This document shows, in pieces, positions 250-38,563 of a DNA stretch of 38,618 nucleotides (positions are counted from its first letter, which is position 1; each line of letters begins with the position of its first letter). The position numbers and the translations under genes were made by a program. Origin of the DNA: a virus; the IMG/VR virus record IMGVR_UViG_3300022221_000016, positions 1 through 38,618 of that record; one strand, 5' to 3'. The notes beneath the pieces were generated by a model. The model did no database searches. It had not been told where the DNA came from and saw nothing but the letters and a program-made list of their open reading frames with translations.

Positions 250-492
250 CTACCGTGTCGTAAGTGCTGAGTCAACAATCGACGGCATGGATATTGTTCC
301 GTCAGCAATTAATTGCAGAGCCTCATCGCTGAATTCGTCCAGGATGTCGTATTGATGGGTCATCAGCTGATCCTGCGCAAATTCAGTCCAGCTTCGAACA
401 TGAAAAAGATGCGAGAATCTATTCCAGTTGTTTACTTTTAGGTTAATCAGCCATCCCTTTATCAGGGTTTCATTTGCTCGGATGTTGTTCAT
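250..492 (-). CDS. Hypothetical small protein, terminal cassette
   Basis: An 80-residue protein of unknown function and the last gene before the phage end. I chose the ATG at 492; an in-frame GTG at 504 abuts the stop of the upstream gene, so the two are translationally coupled. The C-terminal half (LDEFSDEALQLIADG) resembles the C-terminal half of the protein at 1292-1537 (ALDNQTLRNIAAG), with the same spacing to a final Ile-containing helix. This suggests a distant paralogue. No membrane segment, signal peptide or catalytic motif is visible. It shares a transcript with the DUF6900-like gene and ends just before a GC hairpin terminator. The base composition is richer in A+T than the structural genes, as is usual for phage accessory genes. 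Confidence 0.7.
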   Translation of the reverse strand: MNNIRANETLIKGWLINLKVNNWNRFSHLFHVRSWTEFAQDQLMTHQYDILDEFSDEALQLIADGTISMPSIVDSALTTR

Positions 493-721: not shown

Positions 722-791
722 GTTGACGGTGACATGAACGCTCTGTTGCGGAAGGGAGTCAAGACAAAAAAGCGACAATGATTTGTCGCTT
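722..791 (-). repeat. 70-bp terminator/promoter block, copy 1
   Basis: Identical over all 70 bases to 1179-1248 and 63/70 to 1563-1632. Read on the minus strand, the first half is a terminator: AAGCGACA, 6-nt loop, TGTCGCTT, then a T-run. It is followed at once by TTGACT and a conserved stretch to TTCATGT that precedes the next gene. It therefore stops the upstream transcript and probably starts the next. The -35-like TTGACT is good, but no strong -10 is visible at 16-18 bp, so the promoter may need an activator. Confidence 0.85.
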
Positions 792-801
792 GATTTGGAT
801 T

Positions 802-822
802 GGTGCTGGCCGGGCCAGCACC
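802..822 (-). terminator. GC hairpin after the 108-residue gene
   Basis: GGTGCTGGC-CGG-GCCAGCACC is a perfect 9-bp stem with a 3-nt loop, 10 bp downstream of the stop at 832. It has no T-run of its own but is followed by the AAGCGACA terminator of the 722-791 repeat, so the gene has two tandem stem-loops at its 3' end. Confidence 0.55.
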
Positions 823-831
823 TGTTGGCGG

Positions 832-1158
832 TTAATGCGTCGTGATAAACTTGGCTATTTCGTCGGCAAAAATCAGATCAAACCGGCCGTCATGCTGTTG
901 CTTTCTAACAAATATCGTCTGCCCTTCTACGATGTGATATTTATAGGATAACACCTCATTCATAACTTCCAGACCTTCCGGCAGTTCTTCCATGTCGGGA
1001 TTGGCTGATAAAAATTTGTCGGCCATTGTGCCGGGCCGGTCTGAATTTAGAATTGCCTTCAGGGCTAAAGACGTGTCGGAGGGGTATCCGTCGCGGTGGC
1101 AATAAATTGTTCTTTTTTTGTTGTTTTCTGTAAAAAAAATAATGGCTCGTGTAGACAT
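832..1158 (-). CDS. Phage protein of the 'MSTRA...RDGYP' type
   Basis: A 108-residue protein. It starts MSTRAIIFF and has YCHRDGYPSD near residues 19-28. This resembles a group of small phage and bacterial proteins of unknown function that begin Met-Ser-Thr-Arg and carry (H/R)-x-Asp-Gly-Tyr-Pro. The C-terminal part is a mixed alpha/beta pattern ending FITTH; no membrane segment is seen. AGGAG lies 5-8 bases before the ATG. The gene is a single-gene transcription unit: the identical 70-bp repeat lies on both sides and a 9-bp hairpin follows the stop. An adjacent overlapping frame at 956-1219 is a shadow. The cassette position suggests expression from the prophage or an anti-host-defence role, which is inference. 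Confidence 0.8.
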   Translation of the reverse strand: MSTRAIIFFTENNKKRTIYCHRDGYPSDTSLALKAILNSDRPGTMADKFLSANPDMEELPEGLEVMNEVLSYKYHIVEGQTIFVRKQQHDGRFDLIFADEIAKFITTH

Positions 1159-1178
1159 TGCTTGCTCCTTTTTTTGTT

Positions 1179-1248
1179 GTTGACGGTGACATGAACGCTC
1201 TGTTGCGGAAGGGAGTCAAGACAAAAAAGCGACAATGATTTGTCGCTT
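1179..1248 (-). repeat. 70-bp terminator/promoter block, copy 2
   Basis: Identical base for base to 722-791: the terminator stem AAGCGACA/TGTCGCTT with T-run, then TTGACT and the conserved upstream region of the gene starting at 1158. It ends transcription of the gene at 1292-1537 and begins the next cassette. Perfect identity over 70 noncoding bases indicates a recent duplication or strong conservation. Confidence 0.85.
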
Positions 1249-1262
1249 TGCGGGGGGAGTTA

Positions 1263-1280
1263 GGGCGGCGTGTGCCGCCC
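1263..1280 (-). terminator. GC hairpin after the 81-residue gene
   Basis: GGGCGGC-GTGT(ACAC on minus)-GCCGCCC forms a perfect 7-bp stem, 11 bp after the stop at 1292. The copy-2 repeat terminator follows within 20 bp, so this cassette also has tandem stem-loops, with a gene-specific hairpin before the shared one. Confidence 0.55.
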
Positions 1281-1291
1281 TGTGTGGCAGG

Positions 1292-1537
1292 TTATTTGCG
1301 GGCCGGCTCACTCAAAACGAACTCGGCAATTTTAATCGGGTCGGCCTCTCCGGCGGCGATATTGCGCAGGGTTTGGTTATCTAATGCCTGTACCAGATTA
1401 GTGGCTCTTTTTAGCAATTCCAGCTTTGCCAGTTCTTCCCAGTTGTAATTTTTAAAATCTGCCAGGGATTCCGGTTCGGCGCGTTTCACCCCCCTAAAGT
1501 AATCGGCGAGGCGTTCTTCGGTTTTGTTCAGGCTCAT
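1292..1537 (-). CDS. Hypothetical small cassette protein
   Basis: An 81-residue, probably all-helical, soluble protein of unknown function. It begins MSLNKTEERLADYFRGV and ends with ALDNQTLRNIAAGEADPIKIAEFVLSE. The last 40 residues resemble the C-terminal part of the protein at 250-492. AAGGAG lies about 7 bases before the ATG, a strong ribosome site. It is preceded by the third 70-bp block and followed by a GC hairpin and the second block, so it is an independent transcription unit. Its position at the phage end, size and isolation are typical of moron genes. Confidence 0.75.
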   Translation of the reverse strand: MSLNKTEERLADYFRGVKRAEPESLADFKNYNWEELAKLELLKRATNLVQALDNQTLRNIAAGEADPIKIAEFVLSEPARK

Positions 1538-1562
1538 CGTTTTTCTCCTTGGTTATTTGTTA

Positions 1563-1632
1563 ATTGACGGTGACATGAACGCTCTGTTGCGGGAGGGAGT
1601 CAAGCGAAAGAAGCGACAATGTTCTGTCGCTT
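1563..1632 (-). repeat. 70-bp terminator/promoter block, copy 3 (diverged)
   Basis: 63 of 70 bases match copies 1 and 2. The stem AAGCGACA/TGTCGCTT, TTGACT and the GCAACAGAGCGTTCATGTCA stretch are all kept, while the changes fall in the loop, the T-run and two spacer positions. That pattern argues for selection on the hairpin and the promoter-like element. It lies between the methyltransferase stop and the gene starting at 1537. Confidence 0.85.
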
Positions 1633-1650
1633 CTTTGCCTGTTGCAACGA

Positions 1651-2409
1651 TCACCAGTTGAGGATGATCAGTTCCTTTCTGTCGCGGCCTTTGCCGTTAC
1701 CGCCCACGGTGTAGTTGATGCTGACGGTTTTGGTGCGCAGCCCTTTATACACCCGCTTCATCTCCTTGTGATCATTGATGCTGATGATCATCTTGCCCTG
1801 GATTGTTCTGGCACGCTCAGCCATCTCTTCGTATTGCTCTATGCCGAATTCAACGCCATAGCCTTCGGTGTCCCAATACGGTGGGTCACAATAGAACAGG
1901 GTGTCCGGTCGATCATAACGCTCGATCACATTTTGCCACGGCAGATTTTCGATATAGACACGGTCCAGCCTGAACTTTGCCTCGCTGAGCGTCTCCTCGA
2001 TTCGCCGCAGGTTAAATTTCGGTTTGCTGCTGGGCGCAGTACCAAAGGTCTGACCTGTGGGCCTGGCACCAAAGGCACAGCGCTGCAAATAGTAGAACCG
2101 GGCAGCTCGCTGGATATCGGTAAGGGTAACCGGCGCCGACATCTTGGCCCATTCGAATATCTGCCTGCTGACCAGCGCCCACTCAAACTGCTTCAGAAAT
2201 TCGACCAGGTGGTGCTGTACCACTCGGTACAGGTTGACTAGCTCACCATTTAGGTCGTTCAACACTTCGACCTTGCTTTCTTCTTTTTTAAAGAGCAATG
2301 CGCCAGCACCGGCAAAACATTCGACGTAACAATGGTGCTCGGGGTACAGAGGCAGAATCTTGTCTGCCAGACGGCTTTTGCCGCCCATCCAGGGTATAAA
2401 CGGGTTCAC
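1651..2409 (-). CDS. dam: DNA adenine N6-methyltransferase, Dam/D12 class
   Basis: A 252-residue SAM-dependent adenine methyltransferase, acting on phage or host DNA. The N-terminal WMGGKSRLADKI and FAGAG (residues 32-36) form the SAM-binding motif region, and DPPY (175-178) is the catalytic motif of N6-adenine enzymes. Length fits the D12 class. I chose the GTG at 2409 because AAGGAG sits 10 bases upstream; the longer frame from a TTG at 2439 has no ribosome site. It occupies the same late, end-proximal place as mom in phage Mu, so protection from host restriction is the likely role. The recognition sequence cannot be read from the protein. It is separated from the fibre gene by 159 bp rich in hairpins and ends at the copy-3 terminator. 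Confidence 0.93.
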   Translation of the reverse strand: MNPFIPWMGGKSRLADKILPLYPEHHCYVECFAGAGALLFKKEESKVEVLNDLNGELVNLYRVVQHHLVEFLKQFEWALVSRQIFEWAKMSAPVTLTDIQRAARFYYLQRCAFGARPTGQTFGTAPSSKPKFNLRRIEETLSEAKFRLDRVYIENLPWQNVIERYDRPDTLFYCDPPYWDTEGYGVEFGIEQYEEMAERARTIQGKMIISINDHKEMKRVYKGLRTKTVSINYTVGGNGKGRDRKELIILNW

Positions 2410-2568
2410 TTGCGTGAGTCTCCTTTCGTTAAAAATCAACTTGTGATAGGCTGGCCCTGCCGTCGCGACGGTGGGAGGGCCTTGCCTGACTCACGGTGCT
2501 AACTCACCGTTTGTTGGGGGCCGGTCGGTTGCGCTAACAACTGACGGGTCGCCCTCTCTTAAATCATA
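2410..2568 (-). other. Hairpin-rich intergenic region before the methyltransferase
   Basis: This 159-bp stretch has no gene. It contains a perfect 12-bp palindrome CCGTCGCGACGG (2460-2471) nested between GGCCCT (2453) and AGGGCC (2476-2481), a stem ACGGTG/CACCGT with loop CTAACT (2493-2510), and GTTG..CAAC around CGCTAA (2528-2541). No clear terminator T-run follows. It may separate fibre and methyltransferase expression by termination or RNA structure. Confidence 0.6.
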
Positions 2569-3978
2569 TTACAGAGGCACTATTTTTTTATAAATATATG
2601 CGCTTCCTTGGTTAATTATCGTGTCAATATCATCCGATTTTGCCCCGACAACCAAAGTGTTCCCATCTTTTGACAATGTGGCGCTTGCGCCAAAAAAGTC
2701 GCCGCCAGCATAATCTCCAGCAATAATTATTTGTGACTCGCGCCAATCGCCGGAAAAATAGTTAAAAAGAACAACAGCCCCAGCATCCGAAACCCCGTGA
2801 ACTTTTTTTCCCTCGCAACATGCTGCGATTATTTTACCGTCGCCTGAGATCGATACTTTGTTTCCAAAAGATTTGGTTGTATTCGCTGGAGTGGATGGAT
2901 ATAACGGGCTTCTGTGTGTATAACTTGAACCGTTATAGTGATAGACATATATGGACCCATGATTTGAGATACCTAAATAGGTATCATTCCAGCATCCAAT
3001 TGCAATCACACTAGCGTCGTCACTGATTGCGCAGCTTACACCAAAGTAATCAGTTGCCTGTCCGTCACTTGCAGTCAATAGATGATCTTCTGTCCATACA
3101 GATCCTGTCCGAGTAAACACATACGCTGCTCCTTGATCTGCATTTGCAGCGATGTCATTTCCGAGCGCGCCAACTACGCCTACATTACCGTCTGCTGACA
3201 GCGCTACACAATAGCCAAATTGGTCCCCCGTTGCGGCGTCACTTGCGACGAGTATCTGTTGCTGGGACCAAACACCTGTCGAACGAACAAAGGCATATGC
3301 CGCACCTGTTATCGAATTTCTGGCATACGCACCAATCAACACTGTGTCTCCATTGGACGATATCGAAACTGAAACACCAAATGCATTATTTACGACAGGA
3401 TCGCTGGCAACCAACCTTACCTCATCACCCCAAATGCCACCTGACAACGTATAAACATATGCAGCACCAGCGCCACCGTTCCCACCTTCAGCGCCTATTA
3501 TGGCTGTCGTTCCGTCACTGGATATGTCAATACTTGACCCTAGTCTGTCACTTGCAGCACCATCGCTTGCTGTAATTTTTTGCGTGAACGACCAGACACC
3601 AGCAGTTCGCGTAAATACGTATGCCGCCCCCTGATTTATATTAGACCCAACATCTGCCGCATAAGCGCCAATAATTACCATAGTACCATCTGCCGATATA
3701 GCGGTCGAATAACCAAAGTTGTCAGAGTTTGCGCCATCAGCGCTGGTAATTTTAATATCATCGTCAAACGGAAGACCCCGCAGAAGATGAGAAAGGTGCG
3801 GCAGAAACGATTTGCTCAACTGTGCGTCATCATTCACATCCAGAACTTGTCCGCTTATATTGATGGCATTTTTTAATTCGCGTTGGACGGCGTTCAACCA
3901 GCCAGGAATCAAATCAGTATCGACTTGAAACTCTCCGGCACCGTTTGCTGTTGGTGTATCATCGCCGATTTTATGCAT
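2569..3978 (-). CDS. Tail fibre / receptor-binding protein with seven-bladed FG-GAP propeller
   Basis: A 469-residue protein. Residues 1-70 carry the TPTANGAGEF...PGWLNAVQREL segment typical of prophage fibre N-termini that dock on the baseplate. Residues 75-469 contain seven repeats of about 56 residues, each with an FG/LG followed by a small strand and SxDG: at residues 88, 146, 200, 254, 312, 371 and 429. The repeats also share GAAYVF and GVW, so this is a complete FG-GAP, integrin-alpha-type beta-propeller. The ATG at 3978 follows AGGTG and overlaps the gp48 stop. Position after gp48 is the fibre position in Mu. The coding sequence is visibly more A+T-rich than the baseplate genes, suggesting separate acquisition. 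No fibre-assembly chaperone follows. Confidence 0.85.
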   Translation of the reverse strand: MHKIGDDTPTANGAGEFQVDTDLIPGWLNAVQRELKNAINISGQVLDVNDDAQLSKSFLPHLSHLLRGLPFDDDIKITSADGANSDNFGYSTAISADGTMVIIGAYAADVGSNINQGAAYVFTRTAGVWSFTQKITASDGAASDRLGSSIDISSDGTTAIIGAEGGNGGAGAAYVYTLSGGIWGDEVRLVASDPVVNNAFGVSVSISSNGDTVLIGAYARNSITGAAYAFVRSTGVWSQQQILVASDAATGDQFGYCVALSADGNVGVVGALGNDIAANADQGAAYVFTRTGSVWTEDHLLTASDGQATDYFGVSCAISDDASVIAIGCWNDTYLGISNHGSIYVYHYNGSSYTHRSPLYPSTPANTTKSFGNKVSISGDGKIIAACCEGKKVHGVSDAGAVVLFNYFSGDWRESQIIIAGDYAGGDFFGASATLSKDGNTLVVGAKSDDIDTIINQGSAYIYKKIVPL

Positions 3979-4573
3979 ATCGTTGCACCTCGTAGTTATA
4001 TGTGTATGAATAATCCTGTGCTGCGTTATATGTAAAAGTAGGAATCGCATGCGCCTGATTGAGTCGCACGATCACGCATTCCAGTGCTATCTCTGTGCCG
4101 TAAATACGCAGCGGATATCCTGCGCGATGACCAGGGCCGGCGCCTGCTTTCAGGGTAGTCACCGTGACGCCAGGCACTTTGATCTCGTAGTGGTGAGGCG
4201 TGACCTTATCGACGATGGTGATGGCGAATCCCATGCGGCTTGCCACGCTGACCAGGTACGGGATGTTGTGCCCACCCACACCCAAGTACCGACCCACCAC
4301 GGCAGCGCGGCGCTCGTCGATGGTGGGTGATACGGTGTTGCTGCACTCATCGGGCAGGCCGAGGACTCGCTCCCAGGCGTCGATCATCTCTGTGGTAGTG
4401 CGAGGATCAGTCTCCTGCAGCAGATCGGCCGCTCGGCCATGCACACGAAACAGTTCGTCTGCAATCGCAAACATCAGTGCGGCCATTGTGCTGGTGATAT
4501 CACGCGCCCAGGCGCGGCCACGTGGCAGCAGGTTGAGCAGTGCGTCCCGGTAACTCTCGACGGTTATGCCCAT
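3971..4573 (-). CDS. Baseplate/tail protein, Mu gp48 (DUF2313/YmfQ) family
   Basis: A 200-residue protein beginning MGITVESYRDALLNLLPRGRAWARD. The Leu-Leu-Pro-x-Gly-x-Ala-Trp signature is diagnostic of the DUF2313 family, tail proteins that sit between baseplate J and the fibre. The middle has a helical segment with RAADLLQETDPRTTTEMIDAWE. Length is normal for the family. It overlaps gp47 by 10 bases and the fibre gene by 8, so translation is coupled. Family members are baseplate wedge or tail-tip components of contractile phages; the exact contact is not known to me. Confidence 0.9.
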   Translation of the reverse strand: MGITVESYRDALLNLLPRGRAWARDITSTMAALMFAIADELFRVHGRAADLLQETDPRTTTEMIDAWERVLGLPDECSNTVSPTIDERRAAVVGRYLGVGGHNIPYLVSVASRMGFAITIVDKVTPHHYEIKVPGVTVTTLKAGAGPGHRAGYPLRIYGTEIALECVIVRLNQAHAIPTFTYNAAQDYSYTYNYEVQRYA

Positions 4574-9393: not shown

Positions 9394-10713
9394 TCACCGC
9401 ACACCAACCTTTTGACTGCCGGATTCAACTTCCACATCCAGGCCGTTTGATCGCAGGCCTTTGACGTCAACCTTTGTGCCGGGCTTGGCTTCCACCTGTA
9501 TTTTTACGGTCGCCTCATCGCGACCGGGACTTTGGTGGTAGGCATCCCAGATATCGGGATCACCGCCGCGAAAATCAAAAACACTCATCACCGAATCCAG
9601 CAGGCCGGTTGCTGTTGATTTGGCCTGCTCAATCTTTGCATTCCCCACATCGGCCATGCGCGTGCTATCTGCCAGGATGGCTCTGCCATCAGACGACAGA
9701 CTCATAAATTTATTTAGCGTTGCTGTGTTGTTGGTGCCCTGAAACTCTGCGCCCAGGAAGTTCAGCCCACGAATGGCCTCCGCCTCAAAAATCGAACCCA
9801 GCTTTGTCTTGTGTCCTTTTGATTTTTGAATGATCTCAGCCAGCAACTCATTGATCGGTCGGAGTTGCTCTTTGCCTTTTTTCAGTTTTTCCGCGTCAAA
9901 AACTTCGATGCCCGCCAGATCGCGAAGTTGTTGTACTTTTTCTTTGTCTGTCAGTGTGCGCATGATCGCCTCGAAGGCGGTGGCCGCCTGTTCGTTGCTG
10001 CCGGTACCCATGCGAATCACCTGCAGCACCGCGCCCAGTTCGCGCATGGCGTCAACGCCGTTGCGACCTGCTGAGGTATACGCAGTGATCACACGCGGAC
10101 CAAGACCCGCCAGCGCCTGCAGCGTGAACGCGCCTTCCTTTCCTTGCGCGGTGAATGTATCCAACACCTGGGCCACTTTCCTGGGATCGGTGATGCCTTG
10201 CTTTTGCAACTCGGCCGCAATCGCGCCGATGTCTTCACCTTGCGCACCGGTGGCCTGGATGGCCAGCGCCAGGTTGCGCATGTTCTGCTCCGCAAATTTC
10301 AGGTCGCCGGTCTTCTCCACGATCTGCTCAATGGCACCGAGCAGTTTGTCAGGCGCAATGCGGATGTCTGACATCTGTGCCGTATCAAATAATTTTTCAC
10401 GCAGGTCACGAGTCGCTGCCGGTGATATTTTTGCCTGCACACCGAGGCGCTCGTAGCGCTCTTCCATTGATAATAAATTACGTCCAGCACCAACAACAGC
10501 AGCACCGGTGAGCCAGGGCGCAAGACCACGCAGACCGCCTGGGCGGAATGTGTTGTTCAGTTTTCGCGTTTCGGTATTCAGTCGACGCAAAGAAGCGCTG
10601 CCACGGCGTGACATGTTTGCTATTGCATCACCATAACGTCTGGCACGACGCTCCAGATCGCCCTTGAGATCAACAATAACCGATGTTTTTAACTCACTCA
10701 CGAATTTGCGCAC
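9394..10713 (-). CDS. Tail tape-measure protein (short)
   Basis: A 439-residue tape measure in the correct position after the tail assembly chaperone. It starts at a GTG (10713) within the end of the frameshift extension. The N-terminal half is helical (LKGDLERRARRYGDAIANMSRRG), then GLAPWLTGAAVVGAGRNLLSMEERYERLGVQ and IEQIVEKTGDLKFAEQNMRNLALAIQATGAQGEDIGAIAAELQKQG, typical of the TP901/Mu-type tape-measure core. It is shorter than Mu gp42, which implies a shorter tail if length scales as usual. The C-terminal 60 residues are beta-type (KIQVEAKPGTKVDVKG). No lysozyme or peptidase domain is visible. Confidence 0.88.
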   Translation of the reverse strand: MRKFVSELKTSVIVDLKGDLERRARRYGDAIANMSRRGSASLRRLNTETRKLNNTFRPGGLRGLAPWLTGAAVVGAGRNLLSMEERYERLGVQAKISPAATRDLREKLFDTAQMSDIRIAPDKLLGAIEQIVEKTGDLKFAEQNMRNLALAIQATGAQGEDIGAIAAELQKQGITDPRKVAQVLDTFTAQGKEGAFTLQALAGLGPRVITAYTSAGRNGVDAMRELGAVLQVIRMGTGSNEQAATAFEAIMRTLTDKEKVQQLRDLAGIEVFDAEKLKKGKEQLRPINELLAEIIQKSKGHKTKLGSIFEAEAIRGLNFLGAEFQGTNNTATLNKFMSLSSDGRAILADSTRMADVGNAKIEQAKSTATGLLDSVMSVFDFRGGDPDIWDAYHQSPGRDEATVKIQVEAKPGTKVDVKGLRSNGLDVEVESGSQKVGVR

Positions 10714-11174
10714 CCATCTTTATTAAACCTGACAACGTAAACCCATACACATCATGCAGCGACAACCGAAACCAGGACGCCACGACAACAGACAAATCAG
10801 CCTGTGCTCTTGCCGCCCTGATTAGATCGCCCCCGTTTCGTCACCGCCTCGGACGCTTTTTTGTTCAACGCGGCATCCAACTCATCGGCTGCGCGTTGCA
10901 ATAATGCAAAGTCGGTAACGCTGAACCGTTTCAGCTCTGCCAGTGTTAACGGCCCATCATGATCACCCACCCGGGTGATCTGTCTGGCCAGCATGGCGGT
11001 GCCCATCACCGACGGACTGATCAGCAGCTCAGGGCCTTGCTCGGTTTGCACCATCTTTTCTGCCGCCTCCTGACACTCGATCAAATCCTTCGTGGTTGGT
11101 GCGCGCAGGGTGGCCGTCATGTGCGTTTGTTCGCCAACCTTAAAGCCATCGATCAAATTGATAGTGACGCTCAT
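10694..11174 (-). CDS. Tail assembly chaperone, -2 frameshift product
   Basis: The zero-frame gene ends at 10797, but the -2 frame is open from the GGGGGCGA at 10827-10834 to a TGA at 10694-10696. It adds 44 residues, starting DLIRAARAQADLSVVVASWF and ending MGAQIRE. The extension overlaps the tape-measure start. A longer form made by frameshift directly before the tape measure is the conserved design of contractile and siphophage tail chaperones, and Mu itself is reported to use a -2 shift. The predicted fusion is about 160 residues. That the shift happens is inference from sequence and synteny. Confidence 0.75.
10797..11174 (-). CDS. E: Tail assembly chaperone, zero-frame form (Mu gp41, E family)
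   Basis: A 125-residue protein: MSVTINLIDGFKVGEQTHMTATLRAPTTKDLIECQEAAEKM..., the tail assembly E/gp41 family, with the common TTKDLIEAQEA helix. ISPSVMGTAMLARQITRVGDHDGPLTLAELKRFSVTDFALLQRAADELD is the conserved second half. It is made in excess and guides tube polymerisation around the tape measure. The last eleven residues, after the slip site, are low-complexity and basic. It lies directly after the tube gene. Confidence 0.92.
   Translation of the reverse strand: MSVTINLIDGFKVGEQTHMTATLRAPTTKDLIECQEAAEKMVQTEQGPELLISPSVMGTAMLARQITRVGDHDGPLTLAELKRFSVTDFALLQRAADELDAALNKKASEAVTKRGRSNQGGKSTG
10827..10834 (-). promoter_or_regulatory. Programmed -2 frameshift site GGGGGCGA
   Basis: Minus-strand codons CGG GGG CGA (residues 114-116 of the E protein) contain GGGGGCGA, the heptamer-type slip site I associate with the Mu -2 shift. 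The resulting frame stays open for 44 codons. Strong conservation of both the motif and its place before the tape-measure gene supports function. Confidence 0.7.
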
Positions 11175-11528
11175 TTACATCGCCTCCACGGATTGACCGG
11201 ACATCTTGATGGCCGCCTTGCCATCACCACTGTGCGGTACCGGATCAACGGTAAACGCCTTGCGCAACACATACTGATGACCGGTGTCTGTGGTGAATAA
11301 CACCGTCGCATTTTTGATGTTACCGAGATAGATCACATCCGTGTCACCAGTCAGCAGTACATTGCCTTCCAGCATCGGTGGCTCTTCGCTTTCGGAATAA
11401 AATGTTTCACCGCCATGACGTTCCGCAGTGCGAGTGACGCCATGCGGTGTCAGTGTTGCGCCGTTCTCAACCGCGATCTTTTGCCCATCGATGCGGATTT
11501 CTGCTTTACCGGTAATTTGATTACTCAT
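11175..11528 (-). CDS. M: Tail tube protein (Mu M, gp40)
   Basis: A 117-residue protein of the Mu-type tail tube family. It has SNQITGKAEIRIDGQKIAVENGATLTPHGV, the usual N-terminal strand pattern, and RTAERHGGETFYSESEEPPMLEGNVLLT in the middle. Homologues polymerise into hexameric rings inside the sheath. Length fits. It follows the sheath by 20 bp with an SD-like GGAGAC. Confidence 0.93.
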   Translation of the reverse strand: MSNQITGKAEIRIDGQKIAVENGATLTPHGVTRTAERHGGETFYSESEEPPMLEGNVLLTGDTDVIYLGNIKNATVLFTTDTGHQYVLRKAFTVDPVPHSGDGKAAIKMSGQSVEAM

Positions 11529-20552: not shown

Positions 20553-20945
20553 ATGGTGCTAATCGTTGATGATGATCCGCTGGTGGCCGGTGTTTATCGC
20601 AACCTGCTCAACCAGATGGGGCAGCAGAGCGAGATATATACCTCGGCCGATGCAGCTCTGCGCGCCTTCCACGCCGCACCATCTATATATAGACACGCCG
20701 TTCTGGACGTGTTCCTCCATGCCCAAATGGACGGTCTGGTGTTGGCCGAAAAACTGCGGGAGATCAAGCCCAGCCTGCCCATACTATTTGCGACCGGGCT
20801 GGATGATGAGATCAACAAGACCCGACTGCTACAGGTTGGTTATTATCTGCGCAAGACCAGCCTGATACCATCGATCCAGGCGGCGCTGTACCAGCTGATC
20901 CACGGCGTACCCATGCCGGGATATCCCGACTCCCTGTTACCCTAA
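20553..20945 (+). CDS. Stand-alone response-regulator receiver protein
   Basis: A 130-residue single REC domain. All catalytic residues are present: acidic triad DDD at 6-8, phosphoacceptor Asp52 (AVLDVF), Thr81 (ILFATG) and Lys101 (YLRKTS). MDGLVLAEKLR follows Asp52 as in classical receivers. No output domain is attached, so it would act like CheY or Spo0F by protein contact or as a phosphate sink. It is on the plus strand between gpG and gpI, with its own promoter; Mu has no gene here. It probably is a lysogenic-conversion gene that interferes with or borrows a host two-component system. Its kinase and target cannot be told from the sequence. Confidence 0.93.
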   Translation: MVLIVDDDPLVAGVYRNLLNQMGQQSEIYTSADAALRAFHAAPSIYRHAVLDVFLHAQMDGLVLAEKLREIKPSLPILFATGLDDEINKTRLLQVGYYLRKTSLIPSIQAALYQLIHGVPMPGYPDSLLP

Positions 20946-28850: not shown

Positions 28851-29258
28851 TCAAAAGAGAGAGGATTGGCGGGTGTCGGCGTGTTTGAATTTGGCGAGGA
28901 TGATCCAGATCATGCGCTCGGTGAGGTCGTATTCACGGGACAGCGAGAGGGCGGTTTCTCCCAAGGCATAGCGGTGGAAGATCTGCCGGTCTCGCACGGC
29001 GATGATCGCTTTCTTGCAGTTGGGGATGTTGTACAAATCTGAGCCGCCATAATTCTTCACCAGTGCTATGGCGGTTGTCTTTCCCAGACTATCAACCAGA
29101 GGATGATCGTCTTCAATCACCCTGGGCACGTGTAAGCGCATCGTGCCGCCATAGCGGCTGACCAACGTCAGCGTGGAGACCAGGCCAAGCGCAACCACAT
29201 ACTCCTGCAGGGATGCAGGCAGATCGTCGGTGGTGAGCTGTGACAGGTTAGTGTTCAT
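28851..29258 (-). CDS. mor: Mor/C-family transcription activator
   Basis: A 135-residue protein of the Mor family: LPASLQEYVVALGLVSTLTLVSRYGGTMRLHVPR, LVDSLGKTTAIALVKNYGGSDLYNIPNC forms the dimerisation part, and RDRQIFHRYALGETALSLSREYDLTERMIWIILAKF (~90-125) the helix-turn-helix. Mor dimers bind dyads near -43 and recruit RNA polymerase. Only one such gene is visible (Mu has Mor and C), and the two conserved dyads (20226 and 28778) are its likely targets. It ends the early operon. Confidence 0.95.
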   Translation of the reverse strand: MNTNLSQLTTDDLPASLQEYVVALGLVSTLTLVSRYGGTMRLHVPRVIEDDHPLVDSLGKTTAIALVKNYGGSDLYNIPNCKKAIIAVRDRQIFHRYALGETALSLSREYDLTERMIWIILAKFKHADTRQSSLF

Positions 29259-36382: not shown

Positions 36383-38563
36383 TCACGCCTGGGCGTCATC
36401 GACCTCCAGGCTGAAGTCGGCAAAAAATCGCTGCATGGATAAATACTCATCGGTCTTCTTGTATCGCGTTAATCCATCGCGCTCCTGATCAGATACGGCC
36501 TGACCACTCTGGATGCGCTGTTCAATGCGCACCCAGCGCTTATAACGGCGTTGCGGATCATCAGATTCGATCACCCTGGCGACGGGTTTGTTGAAATTGG
36601 CCACAAAGCTATCCATGTCCACGTCACTGGTGTTGGTGCGCATATCATCAGCGCGAGCGGCCTGACCTGCAGCATTAAGCGCGGTGGTGGTGTAATCGGT
36701 TGATGGTTTGGGTAACTCGGCGACATTTGCTGAGTTAGTGATTCGGTGTTGCAACACCAGGTCAGCGACGTTTTTCTTGTTGTTACGCTTGGCGTCTTTC
36801 AGCTCATCACGCTGCCTGGCCAGCAGTTTTTTCTGCCCTGCCTTCGCCGCCGATGCCACTTCGGCGCTGTTGATGCCGAGTATCTTGTGCGCCTTGGCAA
36901 CACAGACAAACTCGCCATCCATGTTGTAGACATACAGCCGGCCGATATCATCCGGGTCAATCTTGATGTACACATCATCACCAATGATTGATGCCAGAGT
37001 GGGATCAATATAATTGTGATGTTGATGACGGATGCCGTTCTTGGTGACCGTCTTGGTGCCACCCAGTTCGGCGAGCAAGACATCGAGGGCGCGTTCGTCG
37101 TTGATGCGCTTGACCGGTTGCGTCCATTCATTGGCAACCTGCCAGGGTGATTTACCATTCAGACCGCTGTGTTCATTACGGCCATATTCGTATTCACACC
37201 ATTGGTCCAGTTTCTGCTGCAGCTCTGCAGCAGTCATCGAAACTTCCACGACTTCATCTTTTGACATGATGCGCTGGGCAAAGGATTTGCGTGCTTCGAT
37301 CACTTTTCGTTCGGCGACGTTGTGTCCGATAAAACCGGGCAGCAGATCCAGGATGCCGTGGCTCATGGTCCGCATGGCGCGCTCGATAGTGCCTTTTTGT
37401 TCCGACGCGAAGGGCATACAGAGACGCGGTTCTATCTCCAGGTCTCGCAACACGCCGGTGAATCGCTTGCTGACATAGTCCTTGCCGTTATCGGTTCGCA
37501 CACCATCAGGCAAACCCCATGCGATGACTGCATCACGGAAGGTGTAACACACCGCTTCGGCCTTGGATGTTTTTGAGACCCTGAATTTCAATCTCCGACT
37601 ATACATATCGATGGCACCGATAACGCAGTGCCGCCCATCGGCCAGCATCCAGTCGGCCGGTGTGCTGTCCATCTCCCAGAGCTGGTTGAGATAGGTGATC
37701 TCTTCATGATGCGATCCAAAGGCAGCCATGTAGATGTTCTTCCACTTGTCCGGGTTGGTCATGTAGGTCCAGAGCTGCGCGTTGTCTTCTTTCCAGCTCT
37801 TCATGAATCGTTCTATGGATTTGAGTGACACCACATCGAGGTCAGTGTGTTCAACTTCAAGGAAGCGCTTGACCTTCACGGCCATGATGTGCGGGTTGTT
37901 GATCAGCAGGCCGAGCACGATTTCTTTGAGTTCGGGATTTGTTTCGATCTTGCTCTGGCCTTTGGTCTTGCCGTGGCCGGTGGTCAATCCAGCCAGACCC
38001 TGCTCTTGATACGCTTTGCGCCAGCGCAGAAGGGTGGCGCGATGCAGATGGCGGACACCATCGCGTAATGGCATCCATTCCTGGTGCTGTTGAGGTATGA
38101 CAATCTCGCCGCTGTTGTAGGCATTGACAAAGTCAACGACCACGCTGTTCACCGATGTTTTGTGCAGTCTGGCATAATCGGCCAGGCGGCATAACAACCA
38201 TTCGCGTGCAGCGGCGCGGCTCTTCTGCGGATGATCATCCGGCAATCCGGCCAGCTTTTTCATGCCGTCTTGTTTGACTTTTAAACGCTCATTAACAGCC
38301 GTTTCATCGGCGGTGTGCTGCAGTTCGGTAAACGCCTGCACTGACGCATCATCAAACTGGTTGACATAGTCAACAGCATGCTCGCGCACCAGGTGCGCGC
38401 GGGTTTGTTCCGGTAATGATTCAATGTGATATTCCAGCCCTTTTCCTTTTGCTCTTTTTTGAGATTTCCAATTTTCGCGCTGGGCAGCGATCCTGATACC
38501 GCGATCTGTTCCGGGTATACCGGGCAGTCCGGCAAGTTCGGTAGTTGAATACCACACCTTCAT
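36383..38563 (-). CDS. A: Transposase A (MuA-like DDE recombinase)
   Basis: A 726-residue transposase. N-terminal winged helix KVWYSTTELAGLPGIPGTDRGIRIAAQRENWKSQKR. The catalytic triad is visible: Asp299 (WEMDSTPAD), Asp358 (RTDNGKDY) and Glu394 (KGTIERAMRTMSHG), with 35 residues between the last two. A C-terminal region (SVQEL-free, DDPQRRYKRWVRIEQRIQSGQAVSDQE) corresponds to MuA domain III where B and ClpX interact. It performs strand transfer for integration and replicative transposition. AAGGAGGATGT before the ATG is an excellent ribosome site. Length is a little above MuA (663). Confidence 0.97.
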   Translation of the reverse strand: MKVWYSTTELAGLPGIPGTDRGIRIAAQRENWKSQKRAKGKGLEYHIESLPEQTRAHLVREHAVDYVNQFDDASVQAFTELQHTADETAVNERLKVKQDGMKKLAGLPDDHPQKSRAAAREWLLCRLADYARLHKTSVNSVVVDFVNAYNSGEIVIPQQHQEWMPLRDGVRHLHRATLLRWRKAYQEQGLAGLTTGHGKTKGQSKIETNPELKEIVLGLLINNPHIMAVKVKRFLEVEHTDLDVVSLKSIERFMKSWKEDNAQLWTYMTNPDKWKNIYMAAFGSHHEEITYLNQLWEMDSTPADWMLADGRHCVIGAIDMYSRRLKFRVSKTSKAEAVCYTFRDAVIAWGLPDGVRTDNGKDYVSKRFTGVLRDLEIEPRLCMPFASEQKGTIERAMRTMSHGILDLLPGFIGHNVAERKVIEARKSFAQRIMSKDEVVEVSMTAAELQQKLDQWCEYEYGRNEHSGLNGKSPWQVANEWTQPVKRINDERALDVLLAELGGTKTVTKNGIRHQHHNYIDPTLASIIGDDVYIKIDPDDIGRLYVYNMDGEFVCVAKAHKILGINSAEVASAAKAGQKKLLARQRDELKDAKRNNKKNVADLVLQHRITNSANVAELPKPSTDYTTTALNAAGQAARADDMRTNTSDVDMDSFVANFNKPVARVIESDDPQRRYKRWVRIEQRIQSGQAVSDQERDGLTRYKKTDEYLSMQRFFADFSLEVDDAQA

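Follow-up and report, generated by a model that had tools for sequence, protein, structure and literature searches.

Three nearly identical 70-bp blocks lie between small genes at one end of a Mu-like phage, and the question they raise is what such a repeated intergenic element does there. The 38.6-kb stretch of DNA analysed here, referred to as the window, is a viral record that holds the phage in reverse orientation. A Mu transposase is encoded at 36383–38563 and a Mor-family late activator at 28851–29258, both on the minus strand. Toward the window start, the tail genes are followed by dam, which encodes a D12-class DNA adenine methylase (1651–2439, minus strand; the true start is probably the GTG at 2409), and by four small ORFs. 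The phage right end (TGTAGCGCGCC..., positions 13–62) matches the ends of two related phages, L006 (...GGCGCGCTACA) and L056 (...CGCGCTACA). Because the match begins at about base 13, bases 1–12 are probably flanking host DNA, and the blocks lie at the right end of the phage.

Several other features of the phage were recorded. Two GGATCGCAAA repeats at 33–62 adjoin the phage end and are candidate transposase-binding sites. A gene for a CheY-like receiver protein (20553–20945, plus strand) runs opposite to the surrounding head-region genes and looks like another accessory gene. The gene at the tail-fibre position (2569–4050, minus strand) is built of repeats of the 'GAY...NQGAAYVF' type; at the same position in the relative L050 (about 9626–10789), the repeats are 174-bp units that are about 90% identical, which suggests rapid repeat turnover in that gene.

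Layout of the blocks and of the units they head

A direct-repeat search of the window returned a single three-copy family, all on the minus strand. Copy 3 (1563–1632) lies between dam and an 81-aa gene, copy 2 (1179–1248) between the 81-aa gene and a 108-aa gene, and copy 1 (722–791) separates the 108-aa gene from a DUF6900 gene. No base differs between copies 1 and 2, and copy 3 agrees with them at 63 of 70 positions. With up to 3 mismatches allowed, the window contains the 23-nt core of the block three times, where 100 dinucleotide-preserving shuffles gave an expectation of 0. Searches of the rest of the phage for diverged copies or for similarity to late promoters gave scores no higher than those of shuffled queries.

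Each block opens with a hairpin of 8 to 10 bp; a T-rich run and TTGACT come next, and another 35 conserved bases complete it. Read along the minus strand, the terminator comes first, followed by TTGACT, the conserved stretch, the Shine-Dalgarno sequence and the start codon; the block ends just before the Shine-Dalgarno sequence of the next gene, and each gene has its own ribosome-binding site. The complete minus-strand order is dam, copy 3, the 81-aa gene, a hairpin (GGGCGGC/GCCGCCC), copy 2, the 108-aa gene, a hairpin (GGTGCTGGC/GCCAGCACC), copy 1, the DUF6900 gene, a 79-aa gene, a hairpin (GGGCGGC/GCCGCCC) and the phage end. The GC-rich 3′ hairpins after the 81-aa and 108-aa genes and at the end of the third group are of a strength found in 0.3–0.6% of 45-nt windows. 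Since a hairpin of its own closes each of the three groups, a unit is best described as block, gene or genes, and hairpin.

The genes carried by these units have a GC content of 0.34–0.50, compared with 0.53 for the phage, and PADLOC gave no defence match for them. The 81-aa gene (1292–1537, minus strand) is homologous to the gene that stands last in Pseudomonas phage Bise (38% identity over 63 aa), and its product had no match in Pfam, PHROG, PADLOC or NCBIfam. The 108-aa gene (832–1158, minus strand) has a weak match to phrog_23089 and phrog_1987, both of unknown function; a search with its protein gave no hit in viral contigs and a single weak match among phages. The third unit holds two genes, namely the 64-aa DUF6900 gene (PF21841; 505–699, minus strand), which is 50% identical to the Bise gene after dam and whose product finds relatives in many unrelated phages, and a 79-aa ORF (250–489, minus strand; 84 aa from an upstream GTG at 504), which is another homologue of the last Bise gene.

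We consider it rather probable that the right end of the phage carries three moron-like transcription units, each headed by a copy of one 70-bp 5′ control block. A repeated element that alternates with single small genes also brings integron-type gene cassettes with attC-like recombination sites to mind. The block, however, has neither a GTTRRRY/RYYYAAC core pair nor a full-length palindrome, and it precedes genes that have their own leader; no tyrosine integrase was found among the window ORFs, where the only recombinase recognised is the Mu-type transposase. We therefore give the integron reading practically no credence. CRISPR and site-specific cassette readings were likewise ruled out on anatomy.

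The two halves of the block

RNA folding showed that the hairpin AAGCGACA/TGTCGCTT forms in all three copies. The terminator scan called copy 1 (770–791, 9-bp stem with T-run) and copy 2 (1226–1249, 10-bp stem with T-run), both on the minus strand. Copy 3 fell below the T-run rule of the scan, its run being changed from TTTTTT to TTCTTT, and this poor T-run speaks against the moron-type reading. Together with a flanking AAAG outside the block, copy 3 forms a longer, 12-bp terminator-type stem (AAAGAAGCGACA/TGTCGCTTCTTT), in which AAAGAAGCGACA-GAACAT-TGTCGCTTCTTT (1607–1636, minus strand) extends 4 nt beyond the block. The block hairpins are thus predicted intrinsic terminators, and the first half of the block would stop transcription coming from dam or from the preceding unit.

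The other half is the conserved 41-nt stretch TTGACT...GTCAAC, which in copy 1 occupies 722–762 on the minus strand and is proposed as a promoter or operator. TTGACT itself (757–762) is a good −35-like hexamer. The best hexamer at a 17-nt spacing, GTTCAT (734–739), matches a −10 element at 3 of 6 positions and lacks the key A, and a sigma-70 scan reported no site in any block. This poor −10 counts against the moron-type reading, and because of it we treat the promoter assignment as a guess; the 41-nt half probably holds a promoter for the downstream unit, perhaps one that is activator-dependent or operator-controlled. With a terminator and a probable promoter in each block, each accessory unit would be insulated and separately expressed.

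The weak −10 can also be taken to mean that the 41-nt half acts in cis as an operator or mRNA leader rather than as a promoter, with transcription arriving from upstream and with a phage repressor, the Mor-type activator or an RNA-binding protein as candidate binders. An imperfect dyad (GTTCATGTCACCGTCAAC) and the presence of a Mor-family activator gene in the phage are consistent with this. The terminator directly upstream, however, would shut the unit off unless transcription was anti-terminated; the 41-nt half folds weakly as RNA, and no similar sequence occurs elsewhere in the phage. On balance, a leader or operator in place of a promoter appears possible but not probable.

How the differences of copy 3 are distributed bears on whether this half does anything at all. 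Relative to copy 1, the 29-nt terminator part carries 5 substitutions and the 40-nt segment running from TTGACT to GTCAA carries 1; the half beyond the terminator is therefore no less conserved than the terminator and is not mere filler. Copies 1 and 2, on the other hand, are identical beside unrelated genes, and the block must therefore have been duplicated or homogenised recently; their 70/70 identity suggests a duplication or a gene-conversion event as the cause. The block is known from one genome only, so that its conservation is not separable from recent duplication, which is another argument against the moron-type reading.

The same observations raise the alternative of a plain local duplication of a regulatory or terminator segment, with or without a gene, through illegitimate recombination or gene conversion and with little function beyond termination. 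The confinement of the blocks to one locus of one genome, the identity of copies 1 and 2, and the relationship of both the 81-aa and the 79-aa genes to one Bise gene would all fit such an event. However, each copy stops exactly at a functional boundary, just ahead of a ribosome-binding site, and copy 3 has kept its non-terminator half better than its terminator. Pairwise alignment detected no similarity between the 81-aa and 79-aa proteins, and the blocks must for this reason be far younger than that gene duplication. Plain duplication has a small but real chance of being the right reading. What the moron-type reading adds by inference from the sequence is a functioning terminator, an actual promoter and joint movement of the block with the gene downstream of it.

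The sequence-only reading had described three terminator/promoter blocks separating single-gene cassettes. The three repeats were recovered with the same degrees of identity, and a conserved terminator plus leader does precede each small-gene unit. The terminator part of the description agrees with our predictions, and the promoter part is a guess, no −10 having been recognised. Single-gene cassettes describe the 81-aa and 108-aa units and not the two-gene third unit. The view that the differences in copy 3 spare the stem holds in that the hairpin still folds, with the qualification that the T-run is altered and the flank contributes to a 12-bp stem.

Related right ends and the search for further copies

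Related loci were gathered by means of the dam protein, the baseplate protein gp47 and DUF6900. The most informative is the right end of Pseudomonas phage Bise (OR683401; L131), which reads dam, 48 nt, a DUF6900 gene, a 76-aa gene and the phage end. The window shares with it dam, the DUF6900 gene (50% identity between the proteins), a small last gene and the phage end. The 76-aa Bise protein matches the 81-aa protein of the window (E = 1e-14) as well as the 79-aa protein (E = 1e-8), and each of these two thus has its relative in the single Bise gene. In contrast to the window, Bise has no block and no 108-aa unit in the 48 nt between dam and DUF6900, has one copy of the 76- to 81-aa family, and has another gene order. 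From this comparison, the window consists of Bise-type genes plus a second member of the small family, the 108-aa gene and the blocks. Because the gene order differs, insertion between dam and DUF6900 is only one possible history, and this difference also weighs against the moron-type reading. In Bise, a four-helix-bundle protein and a reverse transcriptase are encoded just upstream of the dam region (503–2259), as in a diversity-generating retroelement.

Other relatives differ again at this site. The phage end follows dam directly in L056; a 228-aa gene and others stand at the right end of L006, other genes in L055 as well, and a 296-aa gene in L082; L052 has no dam and other small genes. The right end is hypervariable among related Mu-like phages. 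Repeats were examined in 80 gp47-anchored relatives, and nearly all were inside ORFs. The exception is L057, in which two 49-nt hairpin repeats (10998–11046 and 11388–11436; 88% identical) surround an 84-aa Gly/Ser-rich gene before dam; their layout is similar to that of the window blocks, their sequence is different, and their A/T-run is on the other strand.

Several collections were searched for further copies of the block itself. Exact 18-mers were absent from viral_contigs. Exact and degenerate pattern scans of that collection, in which a pattern has to be matched exactly, used three parts of the block; the third part gave one match, a chance coding match in a PhoX-like gene. Sensitive blastn found no copy in phages or plasmids. 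A single scan of genome_contigs with a 20-mer gave only a match in a Clostridia MAG, which was due to chance. The block was also absent from the collected loci of relatives and from the whole records of 14 relatives.

These results bear on the proposal of a dedicated, lineage-wide mobile cassette system, in which the block would be a homology arm for single-gene swaps between phages, as proposed for the promoter early stem-loop elements (PeSLs) discussed below. Identical copies flanking unrelated genes, the hypervariability of the site in relatives, and the possibility that copies 1 and 2 could recombine and thereby excise exactly the 108-aa unit (457 bp) all accord with it. However, none of the viral, phage, plasmid and genome collections, nor the 14 relatives, contained a block next to different genes, and we regard such a system as unlikely. 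The earlier proposal of a variable accessory site was borne out by the low-GC genes of no assigned function and by the different genes after dam in relatives; the cassette system of the lineage was not.

A leader RNA upstream of dam, and known systems

The region directly upstream of dam (2409–2515, minus strand) is conserved far better than the neighbouring proteins. RNAalifold derived a structure from nine aligned leaders, in which 5 pairs are changed on both sides yet kept. A covariance model searched against 92 sources (952 kb) gave 35 matches with E < 1. Most of these could be placed relative to a methylase gene that was annotated or found by alignment, and the placed ones lie immediately upstream of that gene or of a com gene preceding it, as in phage B3. 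Copies are found in L057 (11432–11528), L066 (10726–10836), L010 (2889–2986), L212, which is phage B3 (1236–1324), L213 (2229–2320), L216 (1400–1506) and Bise (2352–2448). In 26 sequences, 91.7% of cells pair, compared with 26–36% when the partners are slid by 1–3 columns, and the covariation score is 0.341 against at most 0.081 for slid partners, figures that lean toward the structure because the alignment was fitted to it. The RNA has a 5′ hairpin, a stem P1 (GAGCC/GGCTC) that reaches the Shine-Dalgarno and start region, and nearly invariant AAGGC...AGCCTAnCA strands; no match was found in Rfam 15. These features suggest translational control of dam, and the RNA is a candidate riboswitch or protein-bound translational switch. 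The mom mRNA of phage Mu is controlled via a Com-bound hairpin adjoining a translation-inhibiting structure (PMC6483171), a functional parallel that does not imply homology. Given its presence across many phages and the lack of any Rfam counterpart, the leader RNA may matter more than the blocks and is probably the more interesting of the two.

The com-mom region of Mu also resembles the window in placing a DNA-modification gene with accessory genes at the right end. It has mom where the window has dam, the repeated blocks are found only in the window, and inspection of the window by eye found no com gene.

A closer comparison is with morons, for which a definition is quoted in a study of accessory genes of P. 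aeruginosa Mu-like phages (PMC4378225). Like the morons of HK97 and HK022, the units contain small genes of deviating GC content with an upstream control region and a predicted 3′ hairpin of their own, and they are extra relative to a related genome, here Bise, at the dam/DUF6900 junction. Of the moron promoter, TTGACT is present and a −10 of standard quality is not. Ordinary morons, however, have unrelated control regions, whereas the three units share a near-identical 5′ block, and one unit has two genes.

The PeSLs of T4-type phages (Arbiol 2010 and Comeau 2014, as cited in PMC4503421) are the closest published analogue of the block. As described there, a terminator stem-loop and a promoter-like stretch are repeated between small genes in a hypervariable region, and the block looks like a functional counterpart. 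The two are unrelated in sequence. A PeSL would be expected beside different genes in several related genomes, and in a T4-type virulent phage; the collections searched contained no second genome with the block, and the window, with its Mu transposase and Mor-family activator, represents a Mu-like temperate phage. We do not class the block as a PeSL, its promoter being a proposal and its sequence being absent from every other genome searched. That it is a phage-specific, PeSL-like exchange block of temperate Mu-like phages, combining a terminator with a regulated promoter, allowing accessory genes to come and go singly at the right end, and known from one phage because the close relatives of that phage are unsequenced, seems distinctly unlikely.

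At present, the blocks are a single case, known from one genome. Should the block function as proposed, it would show how a transposable phage can take up accessory genes one at a time while its late operon stays undisturbed, and it would provide a sequence tag for hunting such genes. If this is true, PeSL-like logic would have arisen independently outside the T4-type phages.
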